Part shown: in pieces, positions 2,318 to 38,791 of the stretch | Numbering within the stretch: position 1 is the stretch's first letter | Layout of the letters: every line of letters begins with the position of its first letter | Virus record (IMG/VR): IMGVR_UViG_3300008120_000094 | Location: 1 to 43,447 of that record | From: a virus | DNA: 43,447 bases | Strand: one strand, 5' to 3' | Program-made: the position numbers and the translations under genes | Notes under the pieces: generated by a model | What the model saw: the letters and a program-made list of their open reading frames with translations, nothing else | Told to the model about the DNA's origin: nothing | Databases searched by the model: none

Positions 2318-2347
2318 ATTGTAGCACGAATTTGCTTTAAAAAACAA
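2318..2347 (-). promoter_or_regulatory. Extended -10 promoter of the lysin gene
   Basis: On the - strand, TGC followed by TACAAT (2318-2326) is an extended -10. TTGTTT (2342-2347) lies 18 bp upstream and could act as a -35. The expected start gives a leader of roughly 45 nt that includes the hairpin and the strong Shine-Dalgarno. Confidence 0.6.
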
Positions 2348-2394
2348 GTTTTAACAATATTTTTTTATTTTATTATAAATGTTATGCTTGGAAG

Positions 2395-2403
2395 TGGTAT
2401 AAT
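2395..2403 (+). promoter_or_regulatory. Extended -10 promoter, TGgTATAAT, leaderless spacing
   Basis: TGG + TATAAT ends 6 nt before the ATG at 2410. There is no Shine-Dalgarno and no -35 consensus. The predicted transcription start falls at or next to the ATG, so the mRNA would be leaderless. Confidence 0.72.
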
Positions 2404-2409
2404 AATTGA

Positions 2410-2934
2410 ATGGCTGAAACAACTATTTATGATTTACCCTACCCAACAAACACAGATCCTGTAGATGTTGCTGGGGATATTCAATCATTAGCAGAAGCAA
2501 TAGATGCCGTATTACCTACAATTGGTCTTCCATTTCATACCCTTGAAATTCGCAATGTTAGCGGGGTATCAATTGCAAAAGGAGATCCAGTATACATAAC
2601 AGGATATTCAACTAAACCAACAGTAGCAAAATCAGATATTGCAACAATTGGTACATTTCCAGTAGTTGGTTTGGCGCAGTCTGCAATTGGAAATAACTCA
2701 GATGGCATTATTGTTATCTCTGGTGTTTTTACTGATATTAATACCGCTTCATATACAGCAGGAGATGTTTTATATGTAGCATCTGGTGGAGGGCTTACAG
2801 CAACTAAGCCAGCATCAAATGTTGTCACTGTTGGAGTTGTTGCAAAATCTAATTCAACAAGTGGTGTTATTATTGTTTCATCCCCACGATCAAGGGCAGC
2901 AACTTGGGGAGCACTTAAGGAAGGCTTACTATAA
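2410..2934 (+). CDS. Tail fibre/adhesin protein
   Basis: A 174-aa protein with a short N-terminal helix (YDLPYPTNTDPVDVAGDI, then SLAEAIDAVL) typical of the anchoring end of phage fibre proteins. A beta-rich domain from about residue 45 to the end includes VSGVSIAKGDPVYITG and GDVLYVASGG, a fold seen repeatedly in phage fibre and decoration proteins. It follows a leaderless-type promoter and overlaps the next gene by 1 nt (TAATG). It is the first of six consecutive fibre-region genes. Assignment as a structural tail protein is by composition and position; the ligand is unknown. Confidence 0.65.
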   Translation: MAETTIYDLPYPTNTDPVDVAGDIQSLAEAIDAVLPTIGLPFHTLEIRNVSGVSIAKGDPVYITGYSTKPTVAKSDIATIGTFPVVGLAQSAIGNNSDGIIVISGVFTDINTASYTAGDVLYVASGGGLTATKPASNVVTVGVVAKSNSTSGVIIVSSPRSRAATWGALKEGLL

Positions 2935-3323: not shown

Positions 3324-3325
3324 TT

Positions 3326-3550
3326 ATGCCAGTTGAAAAAATTACTACCCTTGAAATTGCGAAGGTATCGGTAAAGCCAACTGAATATACAGATGTAAAC
3401 ATAACAAGAATAGGAACCACTCTTGCAGAGGTTCAGGGAATATACCCATTCAAGGTTAGGTTTAAAGATATTGGTTATCCTGGTTTTTCAACAAACACAA
3501 CTCCAGGAATTGGCATAGCAGTCATCGGTAGTACCTTCTACATTTTATGA
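3326..3550 (+). CDS. Small tail-region protein, unknown function
   Basis: A 74-aa protein 2 nt after the previous stop, with a weak purine-rich GAGAG upstream. It has no recognised domain; it is beta-rich with Thr, Val and Ile (ITTLEIAKVSVKPTEYTDVNI). Given its position inside the fibre cluster it is probably a virion component, perhaps a short fibre subunit. Its TGA stop (3548-3550) also forms the TGn of the next gene's extended -10 promoter. Confidence 0.55.
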   Translation: MPVEKITTLEIAKVSVKPTEYTDVNITRIGTTLAEVQGIYPFKVRFKDIGYPGFSTNTTPGIGIAVIGSTFYIL

Positions 3551-3556
3551 TATAAT
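3548..3556 (+). promoter_or_regulatory. Extended -10 promoter, TGaTATAAT, leaderless spacing
   Basis: TGA + TATAAT ends 7 nt before the ATG at 3564, with no Shine-Dalgarno between. The TGA is also the stop codon of the gene ending at 3550. Confidence 0.72.
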
Positions 3557-3563
3557 CACATAT

Positions 3564-4001
3564 ATGGCTATAGTACCAATAACCACGCTAAAGACAAAGT
3601 TTGAGTCTGGAGATAGACCTACTGGACAAGACTTTGCAGACTTAATTGATACTACCTCATACCGTGCAGAAGCATTAGGTGGAGATGGCAACAATTCATC
3701 AACAATAACAGGTATTGAAACAGCAACAGTATTTGACACTATTGATACCAGTGTCTGGAGAACCATAAAGTATCTTATTCAGGTTTCACACCCATCTACA
3801 AGTGTATATAAGAGTACAGAGATAAACATAGTTTTTGATGGAACAAATCAAAATATAACAGAGTTTGGCACGGTATCCAATACGGCAAATGCTATTGGAA
3901 ATATCACTGCTAATTTAAATTCTGGTATAATCAGTATGACGGTAACACCCGTACTATCGCCGATGACCATTCGGTACTATCGAACTGGTTTGAAGGCATG
4001 A
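3564..4001 (+). CDS. Tail fibre protein with C-terminal domain shared with the 729-aa fibre
   Basis: A 145-aa protein. Residues 1-35 (ITTLKTKFESGDRPTGQDF, then ADLIDT) form a short anchor-like segment common at fibre N-termini. Residues about 55-145 match the C-terminus of the 729-aa protein encoded downstream: TVFDTIDTSVWRTIKYLIQV parallels TVIDSWSATAYRSAKYLVQM, and both go on to an NxxxxxxxEx(A/G) stretch and a final basic strand. This small gene is thus a minimal anchor plus the fibre-tip domain. ATG at 3564 has no Shine-Dalgarno and fits leaderless initiation. Confidence 0.68.
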   Translation: MAIVPITTLKTKFESGDRPTGQDFADLIDTTSYRAEALGGDGNNSSTITGIETATVFDTIDTSVWRTIKYLIQVSHPSTSVYKSTEINIVFDGTNQNITEFGTVSNTANAIGNITANLNSGIISMTVTPVLSPMTIRYYRTGLKA

Positions 4002-4017
4002 CCCAAAGGAGCACCAC

Positions 4018-6207: not shown

Positions 6208-6213
6208 TGTGGG

Positions 6214-6235: not shown

Positions 6236-6588
6236 TGGCAACTAATAATAAAGACTTTGTTGTAAAACAAGGTATTAAGGTCGCTACTGGAGTTACTTTT
6301 CCTGATAATACTGTACAAAATACCGCAGCCCTTACGGTTGGAAGTACATTTCCAGTAAGCCCCTCTAATGGTCAATTATTTTTATATACTGTTACAGAAA
6401 GAATTTACTATTACTTAAATGGTGAGTGGAACCCAATAGCAACATATCTTGATGCTCAATATGAATATGATGGAAATGGTATGACCTATCCAACATTATT
6501 TGCTACACTAAACGGTGGTGCTCCAAACACTACTTTTACAAACGCTTTACCTTCAGCAGATGGTGGTAGTCCAAGTGAACAATTCTGA
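6235..6588 (+). CDS. Small tail fibre-associated protein (GTG start)
   Basis: A 117-aa protein. N-terminus ATNNKDFVVKQGIKVATG resembles the start of the preceding fibre (ATVDKAFRIKNGLVVEG) and belongs to the same fibre N-terminal type. The middle includes FPVSPSNGQLFLYT and an aromatic strand ERIYYYLNGEWNPIA, a short unit common in phage fibre proteins. GTG at 6235 is the only possible start: an in-frame stop lies at 6226-6228 and no ATG occurs early. The Shine-Dalgarno-like AAGGGA is about 12 nt away and lies in a hairpin. Its TGA stop forms part of the next promoter. Confidence 0.62.
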   Translation: MATNNKDFVVKQGIKVATGVTFPDNTVQNTAALTVGSTFPVSPSNGQLFLYTVTERIYYYLNGEWNPIATYLDAQYEYDGNGMTYPTLFATLNGGAPNTTFTNALPSADGGSPSEQF

Positions 6589-6594
6589 TATAAT
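6586..6594 (+). promoter_or_regulatory. Extended -10 promoter, TGaTATAAT
   Basis: TGA + TATAAT, with TGA also the stop codon of the gene ending at 6588. The ATG at 6615 follows with GGAGG (6602-6606). The predicted transcript would begin almost at the Shine-Dalgarno. Confidence 0.72.
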
Positions 6595-6614
6595 AAACGT
6601 TGGAGGATTAATAA

Positions 6615-8153: not shown

Positions 8154-8176
8154 TACTTTATTATAACAAAAGTACT
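8152..8176. repeat. Perfect inverted repeat after the fibre gene, with a reverse extended -10 in its loop
   Basis: AGTACTTT (8152-8159) and AAAGTACT (8169-8176) are perfect complements around a 9-nt centre. The centre (8160-8168) read on the - strand is TGTTATAAT, a full extended -10. There is no T run on the + strand, so it is a poor terminator. Confidence 0.6.
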
Positions 8177-8234: not shown

Positions 8235-8243
8235 TGATATACT
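8235..8243 (+). promoter_or_regulatory. Extended -10 promoter of the ribonucleotide reductase gene, TGaTATACT
   Basis: TGA + TATACT lies 56 nt before the ATG at 8300, giving a leader of about 50 nt ending in GAAAGG (8287-8292). No cobalamin riboswitch fits in so short a leader. Confidence 0.65.
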
Positions 8244-8299
8244 AGGACTACTTCCGAATTTGTGAAGTACTCTATTAATTTTCTATGAAAGGTAAATAA

Positions 8300-10339: not shown

Positions 10340-10348
10340 TGCTATAAT
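10340..10348 (+). promoter_or_regulatory. Extended -10 promoter, TGcTATAAT
   Basis: TGC + TATAAT begins 9 bases after the nrdJ stop and precedes the ATG at 10366. AGGAGA (10357-10362) lies close to the start. Confidence 0.7.
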
Positions 10349-10365: not shown

Positions 10366-13300
10366 ATGTCTAACCCTTCCAATTTATATGCAGAAAAGAT
10401 ATACAGCGAACATCCGCTAGTTCTTTGGGCGTTAGATGATCAGGCTGATTACATAACCCTAATTACTGAGGCTCAACGTGATGTTGAGAATGAGTGGTCA
10501 GTAACTGGCGGTACTGCTTCAGAAGGAACAACAACAGATGAGCCATTTAAAGATAGCATAACTGTAGAACTTCAAGGAGATGTCCCAACTGGAGCCACTA
10601 ATGATATTATTTGTATTAGTCCAGATTTAGTAAATTTTCAAGACTTAAACTCTGATCTTGGTACATTTTCTGTTGGTGGGTACTTTTATTCAAACAGCGC
10701 CTATTTAGATTCAGTTTCAATTGGATACGAATATACAGATACTACAACATCTTTGACAGTGCAAAAACTAGAAACTTTTGATACAAATCTTTTCCAAAAA
10801 TGGGGTTTTATATCTGGAACATTTGAAATCCCTAATGAGTTTACTAATCTTCGTGCAGTTGTAAAAATTGCCACAGTAAGTGGTGGACCAACCCCAGAAG
10901 CCTATCAATTTTATTTAAACGGAATAAGTGTTGGTCAATGGTCTGAAGAGTTTAACACAACGTCTTTAGGAATTACACCCCAGACTTTTCCATCAACTAT
11001 AGCAATTACTACAACAGACAAAGTTGTTCCAGCAGCAGCATACGGTTTATCTGGAAACCAGGGCTACTACATTGTAAATAATAATGCTTTGCTTGCTAAA
11101 AATACAAGCATCCCTCTTGTTTATGGAGCATCAGGTGTTACTAGATTAATTCCAAATGATTCAGGAAGACCTTCTTTGATAGTCCCAGGAAAAGGATTTT
11201 TAAATGAGGTAGGAAGATATAAAGAATATACTGTAGAGTTTTGGGCAAGAATTAACTCAAGTGCATCAACACCAAAAAGAATATTTGGTCCTATTGCTGG
11301 ATCTAATGGTCTTTATGTTGAGGGTGGATTTTTAACTCTTGTAATAGGAGATAACTTTGCTTCACACTTTGTTGGTGAATGGGTTAGACCAATGCTTATC
11401 CAGGTTCGTTTAATTAGAAACTCAGCAACAGTATTATTAAATGGTGAAGAGGTTATATCTATGGCAATAGATACTGCAACTATTGCTTTGCCAGAAGAAA
11501 CACTAAATGGAGATTCACAAGACTGGCTTGGCTTTTATGCCTACTCAGATGTTACTCCAGTAGAAATTGACTGTGTTGCAATATATTCATATCAAATTCC
11601 AATTACTGTTGCAAAGCGTAGATGGGTATACGGTCAAGGTGTTTTGTCTCCAGAAGGTATTAACTCAGCCTACGGTGGAACATCTGCTTTTATAGATTAT
11701 CCATTTGCCGATTATACTTCTAACTATACTTACCCAGATTTTGCACAATGGCAGCAGGGTAGTTTTGATAACTTAACTACAACTTCAACATCTTTGACAA
11801 CTCCAGAATATGAACTTCCAGAAATATTTTTAGATTCAAAAACACTACAAGACCTATATGATGATTGTCAGGCAGTTCAAACAGTAGAGTCTGGACCAAT
11901 TGAACCTTATAAATTCATTACATTTAGACCTAATGTTGGATGGAATTCAGAACAATGCTATTTTAACTTCCCAAGGTTTAATATATTAAATGATCAGGTA
12001 AAGGCTATATATGGAGTATTCAGTACATCAGACATAGGACCAGAGTCGGGACCAACCGTACAGCCACAAACACTAATCAAGATATATAGCACATTAACTG
12101 GAGATTACTTTATAATTAAGCAAGAAGAAGATGTTATTAAATATGTTCTTAACTATAATGGAACAGATGAAGAGTTATACACAACAGCATCTTTAGAGTC
12201 TGATCAGTTGTTTTCTGTTGGAATTAACCTAGATGATATTTCAAATAATTTTGGAGAAAATGTTTCAGCATTTTTTGGTAATCAAAATGGGCTACAAACA
12301 TACATCGGCGGAGATGAAGAACCACTAAATACTTTTACTGGTAAAATTTATTCGTTTGGTCTATGTACTGGATTTAATGCTTCTAGTATTTCTGATTACT
12401 TTTTGTCTACTGGAATAGCAATATTTGATGACCTATCAATTAGCGGAGTGCTGGAAGAAGAAAATGCTATTGCTCTAATAGCCCATACAGCAAGTTATAC
12501 ATTATTGCCAACAGAGGCTTATGACAAGTTCTTCTTAGATATTGGTGTTTCTGGATATTGGCAAGACTATCTTCCACTATCATATTTTGCTCAATTTGTA
12601 ACTAATGATGTTGGCAACCAATTTTATGATTTAGATTTTTTACAGTTTAATATAGGATATCCATCACCAGATAAACTTTCAGAAACTGAGACGGTACTAG
12701 AAAGTTGGACCTACGGCGATCTAAAAGAAGAATATAAGAACCCATTTCAGCATACTTACGCACAGTTAGATAATATACTTCACACTGGGTGGGCTAACTA
12801 TCAAGATATGCTAGAAAAGTCTGCAAAGTTTTATGAGTATGATACGTCAAGCGCTTCTATAAGAAGTTATATAACCTTCCAGTATATTGCCGAAGGTGCA
12901 AACGCTTTGCAAGATTCTTTTACTATTGTAGAGACTCCAAAGAGTGATAAGATAATTGATATAGATCAGCATCCATCTTGGGCAACAACAAAGTTTGAGG
13001 TTGTTGACAATACCCTTATTTACCCAACAAAGACTGTAGACTTTAATGACTTGGCTATTGTTTTTCATTTAGAGTTTAAACTTAGAAATATTTTAACAAA
13101 GCCTATAAAACTAAGCAGGCTAGAATTTGCATCACAGGCATTGAACAATAACTCGTTTAACCCAATTGGAACCAGATTTGGTCTTAACGTATTTCCATAC
13201 AAGCGCTCTGGCATTTACTATGACTATAAATCAAAGAACCCATTTAGCATTTATAAGGGAAGCACGCCATATCTATACCTAAATAGAAAAACTGGAATAC

Positions 13301-14022
13301 AGGTTCGTGGAGAATTTGATCAGCAGGTTAATCGTGGTATTGCTGTTCCAATCAACCAAGAGCAAGCAGCAAACTATCGTGTAAGTGCTGCTCAAATTTG
13401 GATGAGATATGATGATGAGCAGTTCCCAATTATTCCAACAGAGTTGTTTGAAATTGACTATAAAGGTGACACAATTAAGTTTTATATGGTTGCCGATAGT
13501 GAAAAGGGAACAAGGGCAAAGATATATGCAAAAAGCCTAGCCTCTGGTTTACCATTTAATGGACTAGCCTATTACTGGAATGGAATATTGGTTAGAGAGC
13601 CAGTCTTAACAGTTAAAGAGTGGGGTGTACTAGGAATTGCATTTGGAACAGCCCTAAACTTTGATGCATACCTTGGCGGTATTAATCTAACAGGACCAAT
13701 GCTATTTAATAATATAGCCTACTACCAGGCTAATAATCTACAGCAGGTACAGAGTACTATTACTAGACCTTGGCTTAGGGTTAAGACTGATGGAGTTACA
13801 AACTACCAGTGGCAGTACTGGCTAAATAACTTTACTTGGGAAGGTGTATTGGTAGTTGAGGCTTCAGACCTATACGGAGTTAACCCTGCAGATGTTTATA
13901 AAACCTACCTTGGAACTAATAAGATTATCATTGATGACTCTGAAGGCATGATATTTGATGCTGAAAAGTTGAGACTGTATTCCGATACAGATTGGCAGAC
14001 CACGGTCAAGATTCCAGTATAG
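10366..14022 (+). CDS. Large virion structural protein with lectin-like domains
   Basis: A 1218-aa protein beginning SNPSNLYAEKIYSEHPLVLW, a start I associate with minor tail/structural proteins of actinophages. Residues about 80-195 form a carbohydrate-binding-type beta region (FSVGGYFYSNSAYLDSVSIG to YQFYLNGISVGQW). Residues about 284-415 look LamG/concanavalin-like (KEYTVEFWARINS, LNGEEVISMAID, AIYSYQIP). A third such region lies near residues 640-685. The C-terminus is rich in Trp and Tyr (WLRVKTDGVTNYQWQYWLNN). Multiple lectin-like folds suggest binding to surface glycans by the tail or capsid. It stands just before the portal operon. Start chosen for the AGGAGA and adjacent promoter. 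Exact virion location is unknown. Confidence 0.7.
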   Translation: MSNPSNLYAEKIYSEHPLVLWALDDQADYITLITEAQRDVENEWSVTGGTASEGTTTDEPFKDSITVELQGDVPTGATNDIICISPDLVNFQDLNSDLGTFSVGGYFYSNSAYLDSVSIGYEYTDTTTSLTVQKLETFDTNLFQKWGFISGTFEIPNEFTNLRAVVKIATVSGGPTPEAYQFYLNGISVGQWSEEFNTTSLGITPQTFPSTIAITTTDKVVPAAAYGLSGNQGYYIVNNNALLAKNTSIPLVYGASGVTRLIPNDSGRPSLIVPGKGFLNEVGRYKEYTVEFWARINSSASTPKRIFGPIAGSNGLYVEGGFLTLVIGDNFASHFVGEWVRPMLIQVRLIRNSATVLLNGEEVISMAIDTATIALPEETLNGDSQDWLGFYAYSDVTPVEIDCVAIYSYQIPITVAKRRWVYGQGVLSPEGINSAYGGTSAFIDYPFADYTSNYTYPDFAQWQQGSFDNLTTTSTSLTTPEYELPEIFLDSKTLQDLYDDCQAVQTVESGPIEPYKFITFRPNVGWNSEQCYFNFPRFNILNDQVKAIYGVFSTSDIGPESGPTVQPQTLIKIYSTLTGDYFIIKQEEDVIKYVLNYNGTDEELYTTASLESDQLFSVGINLDDISNNFGENVSAFFGNQNGLQTYIGGDEEPLNTFTGKIYSFGLCTGFNASSISDYFLSTGIAIFDDLSISGVLEEENAIALIAHTASYTLLPTEAYDKFFLDIGVSGYWQDYLPLSYFAQFVTNDVGNQFYDLDFLQFNIGYPSPDKLSETETVLESWTYGDLKEEYKNPFQHTYAQLDNILHTGWANYQDMLEKSAKFYEYDTSSASIRSYITFQYIAEGANALQDSFTIVETPKSDKIIDIDQHPSWATTKFEVVDNTLIYPTKTVDFNDLAIVFHLEFKLRNILTKPIKLSRLEFASQALNNNSFNPIGTRFGLNVFPYKRSGIYYDYKSKNPFSIYKGSTPYLYLNRKTGIQVRGEFDQQVNRGIAVPINQEQAANYRVSAAQIWMRYDDEQFPIIPTELFEIDYKGDTIKFYMVADSEKGTRAKIYAKSLASGLPFNGLAYYWNGILVREPVLTVKEWGVLGIAFGTALNFDAYLGGINLTGPMLFNNIAYYQANNLQQVQSTITRPWLRVKTDGVTNYQWQYWLNNFTWEGVLVVEASDLYGVNPADVYKTYLGTNKIIIDDSEGMIFDAEKLRLYSDTDWQTTVKIPV

Positions 14023-14024
14023 TA

Positions 14025-14033
14025 TGCTATACT
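14025..14033 (+). promoter_or_regulatory. Extended -10 promoter, TGcTATACT, leaderless spacing
   Basis: TGC + TATACT ends 7 nt before the ATG at 14041 with no Shine-Dalgarno. It rules out the in-frame GTG at 14035, which is only 1 nt after the -10. Confidence 0.68.
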
Positions 14034-14040
14034 TGTGGTT

Positions 14041-14412
14041 ATGGATGACAAAATTCTTGAAAAAGTTGGCAATGTCCGACGCAAAGTAATAGAAAAAGAC
14101 TACAATTGGGGTCTATACGTGTACAAAAAGTCAGATGGCAATTGGTTTACTGACGGAAGCGGTAGTGTTTTAAACATACCTTCAGAGCGTGGAGATATCT
14201 CAAAGATTGCAGAATTAAGAAAAGCCGCTATGCACTATGGCGATGATGGTGAAGGAAAGCCCGTTTTTGTTCCTGGGCTAACAAGAATTAGCGAAGAAGA
14301 GTATTCTGAGCAAATGGATAGAATGAAGAACGGTTTGATTCCTTCTATGAATGACCACGGTGCTTGGGTAGCAGCACGACAAACCTATGATAAGTATGGT
14401 AGCGATGACTGA
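14041..14412 (+). CDS. Small protein upstream of portal, unknown function
   Basis: A 123-aa charged protein (MDDKILEKVGNVRRKVIEKD) with an aromatic segment (NWGLYVYKKSDGNWF) and a mostly helical-looking C-terminal half (EEEYSEQMDRMKNG). No known domain recognised. It overlaps the portal gene by 8 nt, so it is probably translated with it. In many phages a terminase subunit sits here, but nothing in this protein looks like an ATPase or a small-terminase HTH. ATG 14041 is chosen over GTG 14035 because of the promoter position. Confidence 0.6.
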   Translation: MDDKILEKVGNVRRKVIEKDYNWGLYVYKKSDGNWFTDGSGSVLNIPSERGDISKIAELRKAAMHYGDDGEGKPVFVPGLTRISEEEYSEQMDRMKNGLIPSMNDHGAWVAARQTYDKYGSDD

Positions 14413-16000
14413 TGATTATATAAGAGTTGGGTTAAACACCCAGCCAAAAGAAGATAGCCCATTTAAGGAACAAGATCCTTTTAATAAGTCTTGGGAAAAC
14501 CTTAAAGACTATAATGGTTTAAATCAAAACTTTCGTAGAAAAACTTCACGGAATGTTGCAAAGGCAGTTATTACTCCAACAGCAGCATATCTAGATGCAG
14601 CAAATGCAACACCATCTGGTGTAGATGCATCATCAAAGGCAATCAATCCTGGAACTGTATATCGTAATGGTTATGGTCTATTTGATGTAATTACTCCACC
14701 ATATAACATGTATGAGTTGGCTAACTTTTATGATACTTCATTTGCTAATCACGCTGCTATTGATGCAAAGGTAGAAAACGTTGTTGGTCTTGGATACTAC
14801 TTTGAGGTAGCAGATAGAACAATGTTAAGGTTTGAAATGAATGATGATCAAGGAGCAGTTGACCGTGCTCGTCGCCGTATTGAAAGAATGAAGTTAGAAT
14901 TAAAGGATTGGCTAGAAAACCTTAATGATGATGATTCTTTTACAAAGACAATGGAAAAGTTTTATACAGATGTTCAGGCTACAGGTAACGGCTTCCTAGA
15001 AATTGGTCGTACCGTAACTGGAGAGATTGGATATGTTGGTCATATTCCAGCAACAACTGTTCGTGTCCGCCGTCTTCGTGATGGATATGTTCAAATTATT
15101 GGAAATTCCGTAGTTTACTTCCGTAATTTTGGGGCTAACAATCAAAACCCAATGACTGCTGACACAAGACCAAATGAGATTATTCATTATAAGGAATACT
15201 CTCCTCTAAACACATACTATGGTATTCCAGATATTGTTGCTGCATTGCCATCTCTTATTGGAGATCAACTTGCATCACAATACAATATTGACTACTTTGA
15301 GAATAAGGCTGTTCCTAGATATGTTGTTACCTTAAAGGGTGCAAAATTATCTGCTGAGGGAGAAGACAAGATGTTTAGATTCTTGCAGACTGGACTTAAG
15401 TCTCAGTCACACAGAACTCTTTATATCCCGCTTCCTGGAGATACTGATCAAAACAAGGTTGAGTTTAAAATGGAGGCTGTTGAAAACGGCATTCAAGATG
15501 GCTCATTTAAAGAGTATCGTAAACAGAACCGTGATGACATTCTCATTGCCCATCAAGTTCCAATCTCTAAGTTAGGTGGAGCAGATTCAGGCATTGCTGC
15601 AGCACTTTCACAGGATAGAACTTTTAAGGAGCAGGTTTCACGCCCAGCCCAAAAGCACTTGGAAAAGGTTGTCAATAAGATTATTAAAGAAAAAACAGAT
15701 ATACTTGAACTTAAGTTTAATGAACTTACCTTGACTGATGAAATTGCACAATCACAGATTATTGAAAGATATGTAAAGACACAGGTTATGACTCCAAACG
15801 AGGCTCGTGAGAAGTTGGACTTGCCACAAAGGGCAGATGGCGATGAACCATTTGTAATGTCACCACGTCAAGCAACTGACTCCAGAGCAAATCTGGCAGG
15901 GAACCGTGAAAGAGATGCTGAGAGAACTAATAACAATTCAGACTCTACTACAACGGTGGCTGGACGCAATCCACAAGGAGAAGGTAGAGCATCTCAATAA
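14405..16000 (+). CDS. Portal protein, HK97-type
   Basis: About 531 aa from ATG 14405. It forms the dodecameric ring at the capsid vertex through which DNA enters and exits. Characteristic features: the N-terminal MYELANFYDTSFANHAAID segment, QATGNGFLEIGRTVTGEIGY, NEIIHYKEYSPLNTYYGIPD, a clip region followed by IDYFENKAVPRYVVTLKG, and the FKEYRKQNRDDILIAHQVP segment. The C-terminal part has NEAREKLDLPQRADGDEPF and a disordered Asn/Arg-rich tail. Three in-frame ATGs exist (14387, 14396, 14405); the last is preferred because it makes an 8-nt coupled overlap with the upstream gene and the upstream ones lack a Shine-Dalgarno. The preference is moderate. No terminase large subunit precedes it. Confidence 0.9.
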   Translation: MTDDYIRVGLNTQPKEDSPFKEQDPFNKSWENLKDYNGLNQNFRRKTSRNVAKAVITPTAAYLDAANATPSGVDASSKAINPGTVYRNGYGLFDVITPPYNMYELANFYDTSFANHAAIDAKVENVVGLGYYFEVADRTMLRFEMNDDQGAVDRARRRIERMKLELKDWLENLNDDDSFTKTMEKFYTDVQATGNGFLEIGRTVTGEIGYVGHIPATTVRVRRLRDGYVQIIGNSVVYFRNFGANNQNPMTADTRPNEIIHYKEYSPLNTYYGIPDIVAALPSLIGDQLASQYNIDYFENKAVPRYVVTLKGAKLSAEGEDKMFRFLQTGLKSQSHRTLYIPLPGDTDQNKVEFKMEAVENGIQDGSFKEYRKQNRDDILIAHQVPISKLGGADSGIAAALSQDRTFKEQVSRPAQKHLEKVVNKIIKEKTDILELKFNELTLTDEIAQSQIIERYVKTQVMTPNEAREKLDLPQRADGDEPFVMSPRQATDSRANLAGNRERDAERTNNNSDSTTTVAGRNPQGEGRASQ

Positions 16001-16022
16001 TTGAGATAACGTTGAAAATGTT

Positions 16023-16031
16023 TGGTATAAT
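16023..16031 (+). promoter_or_regulatory. Extended -10 promoter, TGgTATAAT, near-leaderless
   Basis: TGG + TATAAT ends 9 nt before the ATG at 16041. There is no Shine-Dalgarno. It drives the protease-scaffold and major capsid genes. Confidence 0.72.
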
Positions 16032-16040
16032 GGTATCGAT

Positions 16041-17360
16041 ATGTTAATAAATAAGGCTCATTGGGTGACTGATGGCGACAATGTTCGTCTATCAATGCCT
16101 ATTGGAAAAGTTGATGTTGAGCGCCGTATGGTGTCAGGTTTTGCCACTCTTGATAATATTGACAAGCAGGGCGACATTGTAACCACAGAGTCTAGTATAA
16201 ATGCATTTAAGAACTTCCGTGGAAATCTACGTGAGATGCACCAGCCTTCAGCAGTTGGTAAGATTGTTTCTTTTAAAGAAGATCGTTACTTCGATCCAAG
16301 TACAAAAAAGTTTTATAGTGGAGTATACGTTTCAGCGTATGTTTCAAAGGGTGCACAGGATGCCTGGGAGAAAGTTCTAGATGGAACTTACACAGGATTC
16401 TCTATTGGTGGAAACATCAAGACCTGGGATGATGCATTTAATGAAGAGATGGATAAGACAATTCGTGTTATCAAGGAATATGATCTTTTTGAACTCTCAT
16501 TAGTTGACTCCCCTGCAAATCAGTTTGCAAATATTGTATCAATTGAAAAACAAGATGGTCACAATGTTCTTGGTGGTTTGATTTCAAAGGTAGATACAGA
16601 AAATATTTTTTATGATCAAGAATCAGGAATGGTTATCCTATCAGATGCAGAAACAGTTTCACACCCAGTTACTGAAAAGCAAATGAAAAACATTGGTTTT
16701 GTTGAAAAGAATGATAATGAAAAAGCAGAAATGATAAAGTTCTTAGTTGATAGTGCTAAAGGCATTAGTACAATTAAGATTACAAAGGAGGTTAGTCCTA
16801 TGAATGAAACAACAGAAACAGCAGTTGATGCTGCAGTTGAAGAAGTTCAGGTCGCTCCAGAGGCACAGCCAGCAGAAGTTGTAGAAACTCCTGCAGTCGT
16901 TGACGAAGCACCAGCAGTTGAAGAACTTGCAGTTGCCAAGTCAGATGATGGTAGTGCAGATTCTTCTGTCGAAAAAACAGAAGAGGGAGAAGTTGTTGCA
17001 ACAGAAACTGTTGTAGCAAAGTCTGATGAAGCAATTGTTGAGGCAGTTGCAGAAATCAAGAATTCTCTTACAAATGCCTTTGGCGATCTTGCAACAACTA
17101 TTAAGTCTCTTAACGAGCAAATTGTTGCACTACACAAATCTCTTGACACCGTATCAGGTGAGGTTAAGACCGTATCTGATGAGGTAAAAAATGTCAAGGG
17201 AGTTTTTAATGAGTTTGGCAAGCGAGTAGATGCCGTAGAGCAAGATACCGCTTTCCGCAAGTCTGGCGATCTAGGCGAGGTCGTGCAGTTTGAGCCTACC
17301 AAGGTTCAAAAATCCCTATGGGGCGGTCGTTTCCTCACATCAACCGACCTATTTAACTAA
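16041..17360 (+). CDS. Prohead protease fused to scaffold
   Basis: A 439-aa protein. Residues 1 to about 175 form a Caudovirus prohead serine protease: GFATLDNIDKQGD, candidate catalytic His67 in REMHQPSAVG, Ser121 in TGFSIGG, and the family signature FELSLVDSPAN near residue 160. Residues about 254-439 form the scaffold: an acidic Ala/Glu/Val-rich stretch, then a coiled-coil-like segment (LNEQIVALHKSLDTVSGEV, VSDEVKNVKGVFNEF) and a basic C-terminus that should contact the capsid protein. It trims and removes the scaffold in maturing proheads. A perfect internal Shine-Dalgarno and in-frame ATG at 16800 would also make the scaffold alone. The ATG at 16041 has no Shine-Dalgarno. Confidence 0.9.
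   Translation: MLINKAHWVTDGDNVRLSMPIGKVDVERRMVSGFATLDNIDKQGDIVTTESSINAFKNFRGNLREMHQPSAVGKIVSFKEDRYFDPSTKKFYSGVYVSAYVSKGAQDAWEKVLDGTYTGFSIGGNIKTWDDAFNEEMDKTIRVIKEYDLFELSLVDSPANQFANIVSIEKQDGHNVLGGLISKVDTENIFYDQESGMVILSDAETVSHPVTEKQMKNIGFVEKNDNEKAEMIKFLVDSAKGISTIKITKEVSPMNETTETAVDAAVEEVQVAPEAQPAEVVETPAVVDEAPAVEELAVAKSDDGSADSSVEKTEEGEVVATETVVAKSDEAIVEAVAEIKNSLTNAFGDLATTIKSLNEQIVALHKSLDTVSGEVKTVSDEVKNVKGVFNEFGKRVDAVEQDTAFRKSGDLGEVVQFEPTKVQKSLWGGRFLTSTDLFN
16784..16802 (+). promoter_or_regulatory. Internal ribosome binding site and in-frame start for a separate scaffold protein
   Basis: AAAGGAGGT (16784-16792), a near-perfect anti-Shine-Dalgarno match, lies 7 nt before an in-frame ATG at 16800 (residue 254 of the protease gene). 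The product would be a 186-aa scaffold, as in the nested C/Nu3 arrangement of lambda. Confidence 0.8.
16800..17360 (+). CDS. Predicted scaffolding protein from internal start
   Basis: In-frame nested product of the protease gene, 186 aa, starting MNETTETAVDAAVEEVQ. It holds the acidic region, the coiled-coil and the basic C-terminal contact region without the protease. Known phages make excess scaffold this way, because many scaffold copies but few protease copies are needed per prohead. Expression is inferred from the strong ribosome binding site, which contrasts with the absence of one at the full-length start. Confidence 0.72.
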   Translation: MNETTETAVDAAVEEVQVAPEAQPAEVVETPAVVDEAPAVEELAVAKSDDGSADSSVEKTEEGEVVATETVVAKSDEAIVEAVAEIKNSLTNAFGDLATTIKSLNEQIVALHKSLDTVSGEVKTVSDEVKNVKGVFNEFGKRVDAVEQDTAFRKSGDLGEVVQFEPTKVQKSLWGGRFLTSTDLFN

Positions 17361-17387
17361 GGTAAAAATCACTAGGAGGTGAACAAT

Positions 17388-18539
17388 ATGTCGGAACAAA
17401 ATAACAATCTAGAAAAGAACTACCCTGGATCAGGCGGAGCAGGCAATGAGATTAACTCTCAGGGCGGTTTCGTATCTGGTGGTGTTGGTAGTGCAACTGG
17501 TTTAGACTCTGCAGGATCATCTGTAGGATCACAACTCGGTAACACTGCAACAGCAGCATTCGGATCAACATCTGGACCAAACGCAGTAAACCCAACTGGC
17601 GCTGCAGGTGGTATTCTAGCACCAGAGCAGGCTCGTCGCTTCATCGACTACGTGTGGGATGCAACAGTTCTCGCCAAAGATGGTCGTAGAGTTACAATGC
17701 GTGCTAACACAATGGAGATCGAAAAGGTCAACGTTGGAGAACGTGTAATCCGTGCTGCTGCTCAAGGAGCACCAGACTACACAAACGCAGGCGCTACTTT
17801 TACTAAGGTAGAATTGACAACCAAGAAGATTCGTCTTGATTGGGAAGTCTCTACTGAAGCACTTGAAGACAATATTGAAGGTGGAGCACTTGAAGATCAT
17901 CTAGTTCGCTTGATGACCAATGCATTTGCTAACGATATTGAAGATCTTGCTATTAATGGTACAGGAACAGGCGCAGATGCCTTCCTTTCCATCATGCCTG
18001 GCTTTATCAAGCAGACCCGTGGAACAGTCGGAAACGACGCACACGAGTACGCAGCAACCGTTTCAGACAACAACTACACAACATCAGTAATGCAGGGCTT
18101 GCTTCTAGCAATGCCACGCAAGTACCGTGCACTTAAGTCAAACCTTAAGTTCTATGCAGGTACTGACGCTTTTGCTGGTATTGTTCGTAACAACGGTACA
18201 CTAGCAGATGCTATTTCATCAGCGTTCTCAGATCGCATTGGTAGCACACAGGCAAACCGTCAAGAATTCCTTGATGGAACTGCACAAACACTTGGTAATT
18301 CACGTACAACTCGTGTACTTGGTGTAGATGTTCTTGAGGTTCCTTACTACCCTGCAGGTTATGTCGACTTGACATTCCCTCAGAACCGTGTATGGGGCTT
18401 CCAACGTGATATCACAGTAAATCGTGAGTACGTTGCAAAGAAGGACACAATCGAATACACAGTATTCGTACGTTTTGGTATCCAATGGGAAGAACTAGAT
18501 GCAGTCGCTTATGTCGACTCAGATAGTGCTGATTCCTAA
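17388..18539 (+). CDS. Major capsid protein, HK97 fold
   Basis: A 383-aa protein forming the icosahedral shell. Residues 1 to about 68 are Gly/Ser/Ala-rich and disordered-looking (GGVGSATGLDSAGSSVGSQL), ending near NPTGAAGGILAPEQARRFID. The HK97-like core follows: VWDATVLAKDGRRVTM, KKIRLDWEVSTEALEDNIEGG, LVRLMTNAFANDIEDLAING (A-domain and spine-helix pattern) and a C-terminal EYTVFVRFGIQWEELDAVAY. There is no N-terminal delta-domain scaffold, which fits the scaffold encoded upstream. AGGAGGT (17374-17380) lies 7 nt before ATG 17388; the in-frame GTG at 17379 overlaps this site and is rejected. It shares an operon with the protease-scaffold gene and is followed at once by a terminator. Confidence 0.93.
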   Translation: MSEQNNNLEKNYPGSGGAGNEINSQGGFVSGGVGSATGLDSAGSSVGSQLGNTATAAFGSTSGPNAVNPTGAAGGILAPEQARRFIDYVWDATVLAKDGRRVTMRANTMEIEKVNVGERVIRAAAQGAPDYTNAGATFTKVELTTKKIRLDWEVSTEALEDNIEGGALEDHLVRLMTNAFANDIEDLAINGTGTGADAFLSIMPGFIKQTRGTVGNDAHEYAATVSDNNYTTSVMQGLLLAMPRKYRALKSNLKFYAGTDAFAGIVRNNGTLADAISSAFSDRIGSTQANRQEFLDGTAQTLGNSRTTRVLGVDVLEVPYYPAGYVDLTFPQNRVWGFQRDITVNREYVAKKDTIEYTVFVRFGIQWEELDAVAYVDSDSADS

Positions 18540-18560
18540 GATTTAACCAATCACTTATAG

Positions 18561-18596
18561 GGAGGGTAGCGTAAAAACTACCCTCCTTATTCTTTT
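18561..18596 (+). terminator. Rho-independent terminator after the major capsid gene
   Basis: Perfect 9-bp stem GGAGGGTAG (18561-18569) / CTACCCTCC (18578-18586) with an 8-nt loop, followed by a T-rich run (TTATTCTTTT). It isolates the capsid operon from the connector genes. Confidence 0.9.
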
Positions 18597-18597
18597 C

Positions 18598-18606
18598 TGG
18601 TATAAT
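18598..18606 (+). promoter_or_regulatory. Extended -10 promoter, TGgTATAAT
   Basis: TGG + TATAAT directly follows the capsid terminator and precedes the ATG at 18630, which has AGGAG (18620-18624) 5 nt upstream. It drives the head-tail connector operon. Confidence 0.75.
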
Positions 18607-18629
18607 TACAAATAAGCATAGGAGATTTT

Positions 18630-21074: not shown

Positions 21075-21078
21075 ACCT

Positions 21079-21657: not shown

Positions 21658-21663
21658 AAATGC

Positions 21664-21672
21664 TGTTATAAT
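21664..21672 (+). promoter_or_regulatory. Extended -10 promoter of the major tail gene, TGtTATAAT
   Basis: TGT + TATAAT begins 6 bases after the preceding stop codon and leaves a leader of about 55 nt before ATG 21735. The leader ends in AGAGGTG, 4-5 nt from the start. A longer leader may favour stable, abundant mRNA. Confidence 0.7.
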
Positions 21673-21734
21673 TATGGTGAGGAAACACAAACGCCGTACA
21701 ACTTAATATCTATTCTTAAGGAAGAGGTGAATAT

Positions 21735-22373: not shown

Positions 22374-22392
22374 TAGTTTAACTATACATCAG

Positions 22393-22426
22393 AGCCCATG
22401 TCTTCGGATGTGGGCTTTGTTGTTTT
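22393..22426 (+). terminator. Rho-independent terminator with cUUCGg tetraloop after the major tail gene
   Basis: AGCCCA (22393-22398) pairs with TGGGCT (22411-22416); two G-U wobbles and TC/GA pairs extend it to 10 bp, capped by a C(TTCG)G tetraloop at 22402-22407. TTGTTGTTTT follows. This is a very stable terminator. Confidence 0.9.
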
Positions 22427-22427
22427 A

Positions 22428-22436
22428 TGGTAGAAT
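22428..22436 (+). promoter_or_regulatory. Extended -10 promoter, TGgTAGAAT, near-leaderless
   Basis: TGG + TAGAAT begins right after the terminator T run and ends 9 nt before ATG 22446. There is no Shine-Dalgarno. TAGAAT is one base off consensus. Confidence 0.6.
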
Positions 22437-22445
22437 AGAATTTCT

Positions 22446-23141
22446 ATGGCAACTACAGTATATAAAAGTGAAATAATACATTTATTTGATGGTACAGAAT
22501 TAGAAATAATGCCATTAAAGATTAAGTATTTACGTGAATTTATGCAGGCATTTGAAAATGTCAAGGTAACTAAAAATGATGATGAAGCCATAGCAGCCCT
22601 AGTAGAGTGTGTTCGTGTATGTATGAAGCAATACTATCCACCAATATCTGGAAGCGTAGAAGATGTTGAAGATAGCATAGACATGCCAACAATTTATAAG
22701 GTTTTAGATGTATCTGCTGGAATTAGAATTAACAAAAAATCTGAAGAGCCAGTAAAAGATCAGGCTGTAGAAAGCGGTTCTAGTTGGGATGACCTAGACC
22801 TTGCTAAATTAGAGTCAGAGGTATTTTTGTTGGGTATTTGGAAAGACTATCATGAATTAGAATTATCACTATCTATGCCAGAACTCATGGCAACACTAGA
22901 GGTAAGTAGAGAATTAGATTATGCAGAAAAGAAATTTATGGCTGCTATTCAAGGAGTTGACCTAGATGCAGAGTCTGGAAAAGGCAAGGGGCAGCAGGAA
23001 TGGGAAGACATGAAAGCAAGAGTATTTAGTAAAGGTCAGACCAACGATTCAAATGATATTCTATCCTTACAAGGACCTAAAGCCCAGAAGTTAGGGTTTG
23101 GTATTGGAATGGGATTAGATTACGAAAACTTAACAAAATAG
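22446..23141 (+). CDS. Tail assembly chaperone, long form (G-T-like)
   Basis: A 231-aa protein. Residues 1-95 are paralogous to the next gene: both start MATTV, share PLKI..LR.FM..FE.V, then (L/I)ECV...M.QY.P and (M/L)PT.YKV. Residues about 110-231 are an extra domain (LAKLESEVFLLGIWKDYHEL, ELMATLEVSRELDYAEKKFM) of the type carried by the frameshifted T part in G-T chaperones. These proteins hold the tape measure soluble and recruit tail tube subunits. Here the long form is a continuous ORF, so no frameshift is needed. ATG 22446 has no Shine-Dalgarno. Confidence 0.78.
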   Translation: MATTVYKSEIIHLFDGTELEIMPLKIKYLREFMQAFENVKVTKNDDEAIAALVECVRVCMKQYYPPISGSVEDVEDSIDMPTIYKVLDVSAGIRINKKSEEPVKDQAVESGSSWDDLDLAKLESEVFLLGIWKDYHELELSLSMPELMATLEVSRELDYAEKKFMAAIQGVDLDAESGKGKGQQEWEDMKARVFSKGQTNDSNDILSLQGPKAQKLGFGIGMGLDYENLTK

Positions 23142-23149
23142 CCTGTTTA

Positions 23150-23158
23150 TGCTATAAT
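23150..23158 (+). promoter_or_regulatory. Extended -10 promoter, TGcTATAAT
   Basis: TGC + TATAAT lies 9 bases after the long chaperone's stop. ATG 23186 follows with AGGAGG (23174-23179), 6 nt from the start. Probably drives the short chaperone, tape measure and tail-tip genes. Confidence 0.75.
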
Positions 23159-23185
23159 TGAGTTAACCTATATAGGAGGAAATAC

Positions 23186-23518
23186 ATGGCAACAACCGTA
23201 CATGAGGGCACAGAACTTACCCTTATGGATGGCTCAAAGATTAAGGTACGTCCACTTAAGATCTCTTTGCTCCGTCCATTTATGAAGAAGTTCGAACAAG
23301 TAGCAGGGGTGGCAGAAGATAACGAGAAGTCAATGACTCTTCTTATTGAATGTGTACAAATTGCAATGGAGCAGTACAGTCCAGACCTGTCTAAAGATAT
23401 CAACAAACTAGAAGAGATCCTAGATCTCCCAACAGTTTACAAAGTTATTGAAGCCGCTTCTGGAGTTAAACTAACAGACGCAAATACTCTTTTAAATACA
23501 GTACTTGCAAACAACTAA
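23186..23518 (+). CDS. Tail assembly chaperone, short form (G-like)
   Basis: A 110-aa protein made only of the G-like domain. It begins MATTVHEGTELTLMDG and aligns across its length, with one gap, with residues 1-95 of the upstream chaperone, at roughly one third identity by eye. It precedes the tape measure gene, where short chaperones normally occur. It has a strong Shine-Dalgarno and its own promoter, so it is likely made in larger amounts than the long form, mimicking the usual G to G-T ratio set by frameshifting. Confidence 0.78.
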   Translation: MATTVHEGTELTLMDGSKIKVRPLKISLLRPFMKKFEQVAGVAEDNEKSMTLLIECVQIAMEQYSPDLSKDINKLEEILDLPTVYKVIEAASGVKLTDANTLLNTVLANN

Positions 23519-36161: not shown

Positions 36162-36162
36162 T

Positions 36163-37128
36163 ATGAGATTTTATGGAAATATGATTGATGGTGGTGGTGA
36201 AGATTACGTTCCACAAAGCGTACAAAAGGCTGCAGTTGTACCTGCGCCAGCAGCACCAATTAAAGTAACTGTTGAAAGAGGAGATACCCTTTCATCTATT
36301 GCAAAAGAAAACAATACAACAGTTAAAGCAATTTTAGCAGCAAATCCTAAATTTACAGAACAGGCTAAATATCAAGGCGGTAACATGATATGGGCTGGAA
36401 CAACTGTAAAGATTCCACCCAAAGTTTCAACACCACCAAAAGCACCTACGCCAAAAGTTGACGTGCCACCACCACTAGTTCCTCAAACACAAGAAACAAC
36501 AAAAGTAGATGAAACAACAACATCCACAACAACAGCAAGTACCACTGAAACTGGTACTACAACAACTACTACAACTACTACAGATAGTGGCGGAGGAAGT
36601 ACATATTCTGGCGGATATACAAGTGCTACACCAATAACTCCAGCAGACATAACAACTGCTTCAGTTGCTGCTGCGCTTCCGCCACCTCCTCCAGTAAAAA
36701 CAGCACCAATTGATACAGTTTTATTTAATGATGATGAATTACCAATTGAGGTAATGACTGATCTTATATTTGAAAATATTGGTGGGCAAGAGTTAATCAA
36801 TATTGCTCGTAATGATATTATTAATGGTCAGCAAGTTTCTTATCAGCCAATCAAGAACCTTTCATCTATTCAGCAGCAATATAACCCTAATAATATACTT
36901 AGTGTTCAGGCTACATCTGATAAGTATTTTGCTAATTTTCCTATTAAACTTGAAAATAAGATACCAAAAGTTGGCACTGGTCCTAATGGAAATCACATAT
37001 ATATTGATTCTACAAATGGAAACCTAGTAATTGAGGCTGTAAATGTTGAACAAGATGAGCAGATTGAGATAGAAATTACGGTAAGTGGTACAATATATGA
37101 AGCGGAATTTGGAGAAATCACGTCATGA
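36163..37128 (+). CDS. LysM tail protein with Pro/Thr-rich linker
   Basis: A 321-aa protein from ATG 36163, preceded by TGAGG and 1 nt after the previous stop; the in-frame GTG at 36151 is rejected. Residues about 32-86 form a LysM domain (VTVERGDTLSSIAKENNTTV, then IWAGTTVKIPPK), which binds peptidoglycan. Residues about 87-175 are Pro- and then Thr-rich, with a run of nine Thr, a flexible linker. The C-terminal half (IEVMTDLIFENIGGQELINI, NPNNILSVQAT) is a conserved-looking domain seen in actinophage tail-tip proteins. It probably anchors the tail tip to the cell wall. The stop overlaps the next start by 4 nt. Confidence 0.85.
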   Translation: MRFYGNMIDGGGEDYVPQSVQKAAVVPAPAAPIKVTVERGDTLSSIAKENNTTVKAILAANPKFTEQAKYQGGNMIWAGTTVKIPPKVSTPPKAPTPKVDVPPPLVPQTQETTKVDETTTSTTTASTTETGTTTTTTTTTDSGGGSTYSGGYTSATPITPADITTASVAAALPPPPPVKTAPIDTVLFNDDELPIEVMTDLIFENIGGQELINIARNDIINGQQVSYQPIKNLSSIQQQYNPNNILSVQATSDKYFANFPIKLENKIPKVGTGPNGNHIYIDSTNGNLVIEAVNVEQDEQIEIEITVSGTIYEAEFGEITS

Positions 37129-38282
37129 TAACTAACACTGGTAAAAGCATTATAGGAAAATATATGCTTGGACAGGCTCCTGCCTATGCTTCTTTTATAG
37201 CGGTTGGCTGTGGTCCTACCCCACTTGACCTTGAAGACACCCCTGGTAATTTTGCCACAAAGGAAGCCCTTGATTTTGAAATGTTTAGAATACCAGTTTC
37301 ATCCAGAGGGTTTGTTAATGAAAATGGTGTTAATAAAATTGTTTTAACTGCAGAACTACCAACAGAAGAAAGATATGAGATTACAGAGGTTGGTTTATAC
37401 TCAGCAGGATCTAACCCTTCCGCTGGAGCATATGACAGTAAAACAGTTTTTGCTTTTACAACTGCAGAAAACTGGCAACATCATACAGCATCGGCTGCAA
37501 CTGCAATCCCTTCTTATTCTTCACCACTTGACGATCCAAATGATGACAATGTTATTGCTATTGCAGAATCAGTATTTCAAACAAATGCAGATAACTCTAT
37601 TTTTTACAAGCCTGCTCGTTCAGCAAGATATGAAAGATGTAGATTTTTAAATAATACAATTTTTATTCAAGGCGATGACTCAGATCTTACAATTAATGAA
37701 GAAAGTGGTCCAGCAGCAGATCACTTTGTTATAGAGCCTGGATCAAATCATATCCATTTAACTGGAGCAAATGTAGACTTTACAAGAAACTCTCCAACTG
37801 ATGAACTAAAACTAGCATTTTCTTTAGTAAATAAAGATGGAGACTCTTTAGCAATACCAGAAACAATTAGAATATTAGTAGATTTTGCAGATACAGATGC
37901 ATCAACACCTACTGGGTTTGCAAGGTTTGAAGCAGAAATAAATCATGGAACATCAGGGAATCCAGAAGATGTTCAAGACTTTTCAACAAATAGATATTTT
38001 GTTGTTACTAAGCAACTACAGGAATTATATACAAGCGCAAACTTTACTTGGAACGCCGTAACAGTTGTTAAAATTTATGCATGTGTTATTGATGGTGGAG
38101 TTCCATCTGAAGATTACTACATTGCTTTGGATGCCATTAGATTAGAAAACGTAGCAACAGTTAACCCATTATATGGCTTAACAGGATACTCAGTAATTAA
38201 GACTGACGGTGCAGAAACAATTATTAAGTCACCAAATACAAGTAATTATATTGAATTTAGATTTTCAATTGGGGTAACATAA
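37125..38282 (+). CDS. Tail-tip/fibre protein
   Basis: A 385-aa protein. Residues 1-90 (TNTGKSIIGKYMLGQAPAYA, FIAVGCGPTPLD, ERYEITEVGLYSAG) match the N-terminal domain of phage tail-collar or baseplate-attached fibre proteins. The remainder contains a beta-sandwich-like region (about residues 165-350) with KLAFSLVNKDGDSLAIPETI and a C-terminal strand EFRFSIGVT. It is read in the same operon as the LysM protein (ATGA overlap) and probably attaches adhesins to the tail tip. Confidence 0.65.
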   Translation: MITNTGKSIIGKYMLGQAPAYASFIAVGCGPTPLDLEDTPGNFATKEALDFEMFRIPVSSRGFVNENGVNKIVLTAELPTEERYEITEVGLYSAGSNPSAGAYDSKTVFAFTTAENWQHHTASAATAIPSYSSPLDDPNDDNVIAIAESVFQTNADNSIFYKPARSARYERCRFLNNTIFIQGDDSDLTINEESGPAADHFVIEPGSNHIHLTGANVDFTRNSPTDELKLAFSLVNKDGDSLAIPETIRILVDFADTDASTPTGFARFEAEINHGTSGNPEDVQDFSTNRYFVVTKQLQELYTSANFTWNAVTVVKIYACVIDGGVPSEDYYIALDAIRLENVATVNPLYGLTGYSVIKTDGAETIIKSPNTSNYIEFRFSIGVT

Positions 38283-38782
38283 TGGAAAATGAAACTATTA
38301 AAAAGGTTAAAGTTGAACAAGATAATCTTCCAACAATAAATAGTACTACAGAAAAATATGATATAAGATATAGAATTATTTCTGAAGATAAAAACAGAAC
38401 CTCACACTGGTCACCAATAGTAACGCTTGATCCAGAATATATTTATGTTCCTGGAAACATAACCATTGTTTCTTCAGGAATAACTACTGTTGCATGGGAT
38501 ACAGTTACTATTAAAATAGGCACTCAGGTAATTCGTCAGGCTAAAGATTATGATGTTTGGGTAAAGTGGAGTAGGGCTGCAGGAAATGGAGACTGGAATT
38601 ATGTTCAAAGAATCTCTGGTAATTCCATTAATCTTGTTCATCCAACTACGTTTTATATTAATGGTGTAGATCAAACACAAGCACCAAATAGAGTAACAAT
38701 AGAAGTTTACTTAAAGGGTGAACCAATAACAAGAGATTCTGTAAACCTTTTGGTTTATAACCCTGCAATGCATACGATCTAA
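38282..38782 (+). CDS. Small fibronectin type III-like tail protein
   Basis: A 166-aa protein overlapping the previous stop by 1 nt (TAATG). It shows a fibronectin type III/Ig-like pattern: YDIRYRIISEDKNRTSHWSP, then a second part TVTIKIGTQVIRQAKDYDVW and VKWSRAAGNGDWNYVQRISG. Fn3-type domains are common in tail proteins that bind cell surfaces weakly. Function beyond tail decoration is unknown. It is the last gene of the tail-tip operon before a new promoter. Confidence 0.65.
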   Translation: MENETIKKVKVEQDNLPTINSTTEKYDIRYRIISEDKNRTSHWSPIVTLDPEYIYVPGNITIVSSGITTVAWDTVTIKIGTQVIRQAKDYDVWVKWSRAAGNGDWNYVQRISGNSINLVHPTTFYINGVDQTQAPNRVTIEVYLKGEPITRDSVNLLVYNPAMHTI

Positions 38783-38791
38783 TGATATAAT
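38783..38791 (+). promoter_or_regulatory. Extended -10 promoter, TGaTATAAT, near-leaderless
   Basis: TGA + TATAAT ends 9 nt before ATG 38801. GGAGAG sits in those 9 nt and could act as a Shine-Dalgarno, but would lie at or before the expected mRNA 5' end. Confidence 0.7.

Follow-up and report, generated by a model that had tools for sequence, protein, structure and literature searches.

The 43,447-base virus record IMGVR_UViG_3300008120_000094 (hereafter the window, meaning the whole stretch of DNA analysed here) carries siphophage structural genes, namely those for a portal protein (14387), a protease (16041), the major capsid protein (MCP; 17379) and a tape measure protein (23541), together with a ribonucleotide reductase (RNR) gene at 8300 and, at its right end, genes for a DnaB-type helicase, a primase and SSB. 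Here, we describe a family of promoter-like words, TGnTATAAT, that stands at many of its gene borders. The window sits inside a 101.5-kb contig, G001, with 21 kb aligned at 100.0% (not letter for letter), 6.4 kb exact and both ends located in stretches of that contig. Its named relatives are Streptomyces phages of 120-134 kb, those opened belonging to the Stanwilliamsviridae, with a portal about 45% and a capsid protein about 43% identical; as a query, the capsid protein gives at least 599 matches in the viral-contig collection, the best 80 loci having 68-88% DNA identity, save two that are near-identical. All eight large records examined, including G001, encode a single WhiB protein, described as an actinophage marker (PMC6802176) and here a sign that the hosts are Actinobacteria. 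A capsid scan of GTDB genomes gives one match, a 4.9-kb phage contig in the metagenome-assembled genome (MAG) of Actinomycetota bacterium isolate WB8_2xO_007, which itself shows the promoter word before the protease gene and behind the capsid gene; with the RNR protein as query, the genome scan returns no relative. From this contig and WhiB we make a weak, tentative host assignment, and refer to WB8_2xO_007 and its relatives as the likely hosts.

A sequence-only reading had listed 12 plus-strand sites and one minus-strand site that match the word exactly or with one base off, all of them at gene borders ahead of starts, and every one is present, with the 12 plus-strand sites falling in gaps (Table 1). 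The exact word occurs 11 times in the window (10 plus, 1 minus) against 3.69 +/- 1.89 in shuffled sequence, and none of 100 shuffles reaches 11. When coding and non-coding DNA are divided according to our own pick of 38 frames, nine of the 10 plus-strand hexamers are wholly non-coding, in a window of which 2.5% is non-coding (2.2% of positions; P ~1e-14). On the same strand TGn precedes 9/9 non-coding TATAAT words and 1/22 coding ones (Fisher P = 5e-7), and the comparison of intergenic with coding DNA proposed in the earlier reading thus finds the motif concentrated between genes. Its statement that TATAAT strings inside genes lack TGn holds for 21 of the 22 coding words and breaks down at 3923, one of two exact copies that it had overlooked. 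This copy, on the plus strand inside gene 3564-4001, is probably not a promoter, given how few distinct relatives keep TGnTAnnnT there (Table 1), and the other, at 8160-8168 on the minus strand, was set aside as a promoter, being located in the loop of a palindrome. Of the 19 gaps that are 10 nt or longer, 13 have a TGnTAnnnT ahead of the next plus-strand gene, namely the 12 already listed and TGCTAAAAT at 42606. Words with one mismatch are, taken together, no commoner than expected (81 observed, 81.5 expected), so the one-off sites at 8235, 14025, 22428 and 2318 are not supported statistically by the window itself and needed evidence from beyond it; conservation rescues them, since TGnTAnnnT is kept in all upstream stretches compared. 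The same lack of enrichment is what would be expected of a set produced by chance in an AT-rich genome and selected by eye; the exact sites are, however, enriched, placed at borders and conserved across relatives, and we give this explanation next to no weight.

Conservation was followed at orthologous borders, using the best 80 loci in each list (capsid, left border, right border and leftward arm). Rows for the middle borders (10366-23186, and RNR) and for the controls came from the best 80 capsid loci, excluding L009 and L010, which are the same phage as the window; at the left and right borders (2410, 3564, 6615, 38801 and 2266) identical upstream stretches were merged and near-identical relatives kept if the stretch differed, with proteins 89-100% identical in the 38801 set. 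Alignments that fell short of the gene start were dropped. Against the high counts at the sites themselves (Table 1), seven control borders hold 0 exact words and 18 TGnTAnnnT in 398 rows, and three borders that have no word in the window have no exact one in the relatives either (38282, 0/48; 39397, 0/48; 39260, 0/53, with 22 TGnTAnnnT). Information content reaches 1.85-2.0 bits at motif positions and 0.2-1.1 bits in the zone of an expected -35 element. The rows scored, with identical upstream stretches merged, had been selected by TGnTAnnnT; five positions are fixed by this selection, and it cost rows at the 21735 border alone.

Over whole genomes the word follows the direction of the genes. 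In six records of 88-110 kb, a leftward arm was delimited by eye on the basis of gene strands. Outside this arm, where the structural and replication genes lie, the exact word is found 120 times along the gene direction and 17 times against it; inside the arm the counts are five and one. Most rightward transcripts of the phage thus appear to begin at a single short word that is strongly conserved. The suggestion that this is a late-specific promoter type does not hold: no other gap site comes between 38783 and the helicase/primase genes, and in the six genomes the word is spread throughout the DNA outside the leftward arm, so that a late-only reading is rejected for a set spanning the rightward arm, replication genes included. 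The proposal of single extended -10 promoters, one per gene group, read by an actinobacterial RNA polymerase is supported, with WhiB in 8/8 records and no sigma-70 domain matches. A dedicated reader made by the phage, be it a sigma factor, an RNA polymerase or an activator, is conceivable given that the exact word is almost absent from the likely hosts, and cultured phages of another freshwater Actinobacteria group are described as carrying a sigma-70 factor (PMC10202952). Such a reader nevertheless seems unlikely here: Sigma70_r4 finds no match in the eight large records, G001 among them, nor Sigma70_r2 in six of these and three named Streptomyces phages (single-subunit polymerases were not searched for), and the word is the textbook extended -10. 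It is very probable that the sites are genuine extended -10 promoters, recognised by the host sigma-A RNA polymerase.

No common -35 box precedes them, as had been judged by eye: TTGACA-like hexamers are not in excess ahead of the 20 rightward sites of G001 (z -0.22), and no hidden -35 at a spacing of 15-19 is found in that contig. A weak -35 is ordinary in Actinobacteria, M. smegmatis and the likely hosts included, the leaderless promoters of the latter having no clear -35 (53, z 1.4), so this part of the earlier description stands as an actinobacterial trait and is not peculiar to the phage; leaderless starts, too, are common in Actinobacteria. Across the 120 sites of the six genomes, a start lies at most 10 nt from the hexamer in 39 cases and further off in 76, five being without a start found, and a Shine-Dalgarno sequence is present at 2/39 of the short-gap sites versus 66/76 of the longer ones. 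Starts 6-9 nt off are found at 27% of sites and 2.7% of random positions, a tenfold difference, and at border 14041 an ATG or GTG follows TATACT at exactly 7 nt in 43/43 and at border 3564 the start lies 6 or 7 nt after the hexamer in 42/42. This clustering of gaps, with distances of 6 or 7 nt at the last two borders, is the pattern that would be expected if transcription began about 7 nt after the hexamer. In such a mechanism, TATAAT would be contacted by sigma region 2 and TGn by region 3, making a -35 contact dispensable, and the rightward arm would be served by one extended -10 promoter per gene group, with a strong terminator immediately ahead of two of these. A start codon at 6-10 nt would give an mRNA with no leader or hardly any, and at the other sites a Shine-Dalgarno leader would follow. 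Gap geometry suggests that many sites give leaderless mRNA, and border 38801 has the leaderless form in some relatives and a Shine-Dalgarno leader in others. Closeness to starts would also suit a conserved binding site or an RNA signal that is no promoter; the existence of two kinds of leader, the clustering of starts at 6-9 nt, the two sites directly behind terminators and the common variants of the hexamer, which are other -10 hexamers such as TATACT and TAGAAT, make this highly improbable.

Several observations weigh against promoters of this one type at every border. Six of the 19 gaps have no TGnTAnnnT, one of them between convergent genes; border 21735 keeps TGnTAnnnT in just 30/47; and three borders that lack the word in the window carry it exactly in some relatives (2934, 10/40 distinct stretches; 4018, 8/37; 37125, 4/50), the 2934 homologue standing directly behind a promoter in at least one of them (L116). 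The absence of a Shine-Dalgarno sequence from 37/39 short-gap sites is partly by construction, there being little room at such gaps, and gaps below 6 nt are just mildly rare (2/120, about 5 expected) among sites drawn from six related genomes. The -35 score of the 120 pooled sites is slightly above that of shuffles (z 2.1), and TTGAC-N16-18-TAnnnT is in some excess outside the left arm (99 versus 56 in the six genomes), so that the extended -10, though the main type, may be one among others.

The leftward arm is organised differently, and from its small genes and orientation it may be an early region. TTGAC-N16-18-TAnnnT dyads number 30 versus 6 in the six genomes and 703 versus 145 in 80 redundant arm loci, and the idea that the whole genome avoids -35 elements was dropped, as the left arm has these dyads. 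A second family has TGTCRG exactly 10 nt before TAnnnT, in 22/37 words versus 2/17 on the other strand (six genomes); 19 of these 22 are in G001 and G003 and the pattern is weak in G004-G006. In the best 80 of 451 arm loci (L319-L398), 454/617 distinct TGTCRG words have this spacing versus 19/185 on the other strand, with a spacing of 16 nt second in frequency (146) and a mean of 7.4 such promoters per locus, and the pattern is repeated also in the G001 arm (L089). With these other promoters on the leftward arm, the earlier proposal that the extended -10 is the sole promoter type is not supported. TGTCRG-N10-TAnnnT is the consensus of the RecA-NDp or PafBC promoter, and the phage family resembles this DNA-damage promoter of the host in geometry. 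PafBC itself is described as reading a -26 motif, sitting between promoter DNA and sigma-A domain 4 and being activated by single-stranded DNA (PMC11804915). A fuller TGTCRG pattern is found in five of nine likely-host genomes (20 versus 3 for the reversed pattern), where a RecA frame (Pfam PF00154) follows 2/20 of the sites (L400 and L412) and a LexA-box-like CGAACnnnnGTTCG stands beside 6/20. WYL genes are present in 9/9 of these genomes, with neighbouring pairs in six, and absent from eight phage records. The promoters suggest that these phages exploit the actinobacterial DNA-damage activator, and phage use of PafBC is not reported among the literature matches listed. We regard the division into two arms, with a DNA-damage-type family on one of them, as the most surprising result; the earlier reading did not mention it.

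In the likely hosts the consensus word is rare. WB8_2xO_007 and eight relatives (0.6-1.4 Mb; G009-G017) hold the exact TGNTATAAT six times, two of these on the phage contig, versus 63 for the reversed pattern, and TGNTAYRAT 39 times versus 251 reversed. These nine are part of 13 genomes searched, G018-G021, two of which are richer in G+C (72% and 58%), having been left out; all 13 together give 7 exact words versus 69 reversed. Within 516 kb from six likely-host genomes TATAAT is seen 17 times where 120-209 are expected, at least sevenfold below, while G001 has 122 against 123-126 expected. The three exact words seen in the 516 kb are an overestimate, as the stretches L122, L128 and L130 were included precisely for containing the word. 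The reversed pattern is not a perfect control, being itself below Markov expectation in the 516 kb (2 versus 10-13), and the case for depletion therefore rests on TATAAT and the whole-genome counts. The -10 words enriched between genes in the host clade are TAGACT and TAGGCT, and TAnnnT lies 6 or 7 nt ahead of 52/188 host starts. Judged from these words, the leaderless style of the phage is host-like and its consensus hexamer is not; in hosts with so few TATAAT words, the phage sites become candidates for strong, selective promoters.

Table 1. Predicted promoters and associated features of the window; fractions are upstream stretches with the exact word or with TGnTAnnnT.
Feature	Position	Strand	Remarks
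TGCTACAAT predicted promoter	2318..2326	-	leftward gene 1715-2266; TGnTAnnnT 30/30 distinct upstream stretches, 7 exact
TGGTATAAT predicted promoter	2395..2403	+	6 nt ahead of ATG 2410, leaderless type; exact 44/44 distinct upstream stretches
TGATATAAT predicted promoter	3548..3556	+	7 nt ahead of ATG 3564, leaderless type; exact 41/43, TGnTAnnnT 42/43
Exact motif inside gene 3564-4001	3923..3931	+	TGnTAnnnT kept in 13/37 distinct relatives
TGATATAAT predicted promoter with GGAGG leader	6586..6594	+	gene 6615; exact 26/27
Exact TGTTATAAT in loop of palindrome AGTACTTT/AAAGTACT	8160..8168	-	sequence resembles RNR leader hairpin stem
TGATATACT predicted promoter of RNR gene 8300	8235..8243	+	56-nt leader; TGnTAnnnT 22/22, 1 exact
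RNR leader with conserved hairpin	8244..8299	+	7 pairs, 3 changed on both sides, in 15/24 leaders found
TGCTATAAT predicted promoter with GGAG leader	10340..10348	+	gene 10366; exact 26/28, TGnTAnnnT 28/28
TGCTATACT predicted promoter	14025..14033	+	7 nt ahead of ATG 14041 (start re-set from GTG 14035); TGnTAnnnT 43/43
TGGTATAAT predicted promoter of head maturation protease gene 16041	16023..16031	+	gap 9 nt; exact 59/59
Strong terminator-like hairpin	18557..18590	+	immediately ahead of 18598 promoter
TGGTATAAT predicted promoter behind MCP gene	18598..18606	+	AGGAG leader, gene 18630; exact 73/73; same border in 3/3 Streptomyces phages
TGTTATAAT predicted promoter	21664..21672	+	conserved 62-nt leader, gene 21735; exact 21/47, TGnTAnnnT 30/47
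Strong terminator-like hairpin	22390..22419	+	immediately ahead of 22428 promoter
TGGTAGAAT predicted promoter	22428..22436	+	9 nt ahead of ATG 22446; TGnTAnnnT 39/39, 0 exact
TGCTATAAT predicted promoter with GGAGG leader	23150..23158	+	gene 23186; exact 33/36, TGnTAnnnT 36/36
Candidate TGGTACAAT ahead of gene 37125			TGnTAnnnT 50/50, but coding DNA with conserved protein there
TGATATAAT predicted promoter	38783..38791	+	9 nt ahead of ATG 38801; final gap site before helicase/primase; exact 51/51
Candidate TGCTAAAAT ahead of SSB gene	42606	+	TGnTAnnnT by eye in 6/6 rows; overlaps end of preceding gene

Some leaders have features of their own. On the minus strand at 2267-2317 a GCTACC-loop-GGTAGC hairpin lies in the leader of gene 1715-2266 and is seen by eye in several relatives, and the conserved 62-nt leader at 21673-21734 (GAGGAAACA...ACTTAATATCTATT...AGAGGTGAATA) precedes an Ig-domain tail gene; Rfam at gathering thresholds gives no match in the window. 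Genes 22446-23138 and 23186-23515, which are neighbours, each have a match to phrog_10504, pointing to a tandem duplication among the tail genes.

Taken together with the leftward arm, the rightward sites allow a further scheme, which we put forward tentatively and consider less likely than not. The phage may use the host sigma-A polymerase in two ways: on the leftward arm through -35/-10 and PafBC promoters, with damage sensing by the host turned into a signal of infection, and on the rightward arm through extended -10 promoters independent of a -35, with a phage blocker of sigma-A domain 4, possibly the WhiB-like protein, diverting the polymerase from the leftward-arm promoters to the rightward ones. 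The sites offer a promoter code, with expected start points and expected leaderless genes, for freshwater actinophages of a group that is well represented in the viral-contig collection.

The extended -10 class is already known, and what is new is the manner of its deployment. Extended -10 (TGn/-10) promoters are described as TGnTATAAT words that need no -35 (PMC2988021, PMC3917453), and in C. glutamicum TGnTATAATnG is reported as part of the strongest core promoter, with a -35 that often cannot be identified (PMC3917453). Compared with these sigma-70 and sigma-A promoters, the phage sites form a genome-wide, near-invariant set, about one per gene group, and the likely hosts hold very few. They are like the leaderless mRNAs of Actinobacteria in having TAnnnT 6-7 nt ahead of ATG, M. 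smegmatis being reported to have 24% leaderless transcripts and no conserved -35 (PMC6448022), and unlike host leaderless promoters in having consensus hexamers in place of the TAGGCT and TAGACT of the host clade.

Among phages, cluster O mycobacteriophages are described as having 8-9 predicted SigA-like promoters per genome, some leaderless (PMC4351075); those were predicted by a search for -35 and -10, whereas here there is no common -35 and conservation was tested. Closer at hand, the Stanwilliamsviridae Comrade (scanned whole), Muntaha and Yaboi (both read around the capsid genes only) share the exact word behind the capsid gene (3/3), after a hairpin seen by eye. Comrade differs in its 4 exact sites, its 82 gene-direction TTGAC-N16-18-TAnnnT dyads versus 8 opposite and its lack of TGTCRG-N10-TAnnnT, and neither heavy extended -10 use nor a PafBC-type set is seen in it. 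Phages E7 and F5 of 'Ca. Nanopelagicales' are likewise described as freshwater actinophages with WhiB, yet at 39 kb and with a sigma-70 factor (PMC10202952), for which there is no domain match here. Early promoters of T4 are described as near-consensus and as competing well with those of the host, and TGn/-10 promoters as escaping AsiA in a buffer-dependent way (PMC2988021); the T4 early promoters carry a -35, unlike the rightward-arm sites of the present phages. On the leftward arm, TGTCRG-N10-TAnnnT is like the RecA-NDp and PafBC promoters, and is here found in phages.

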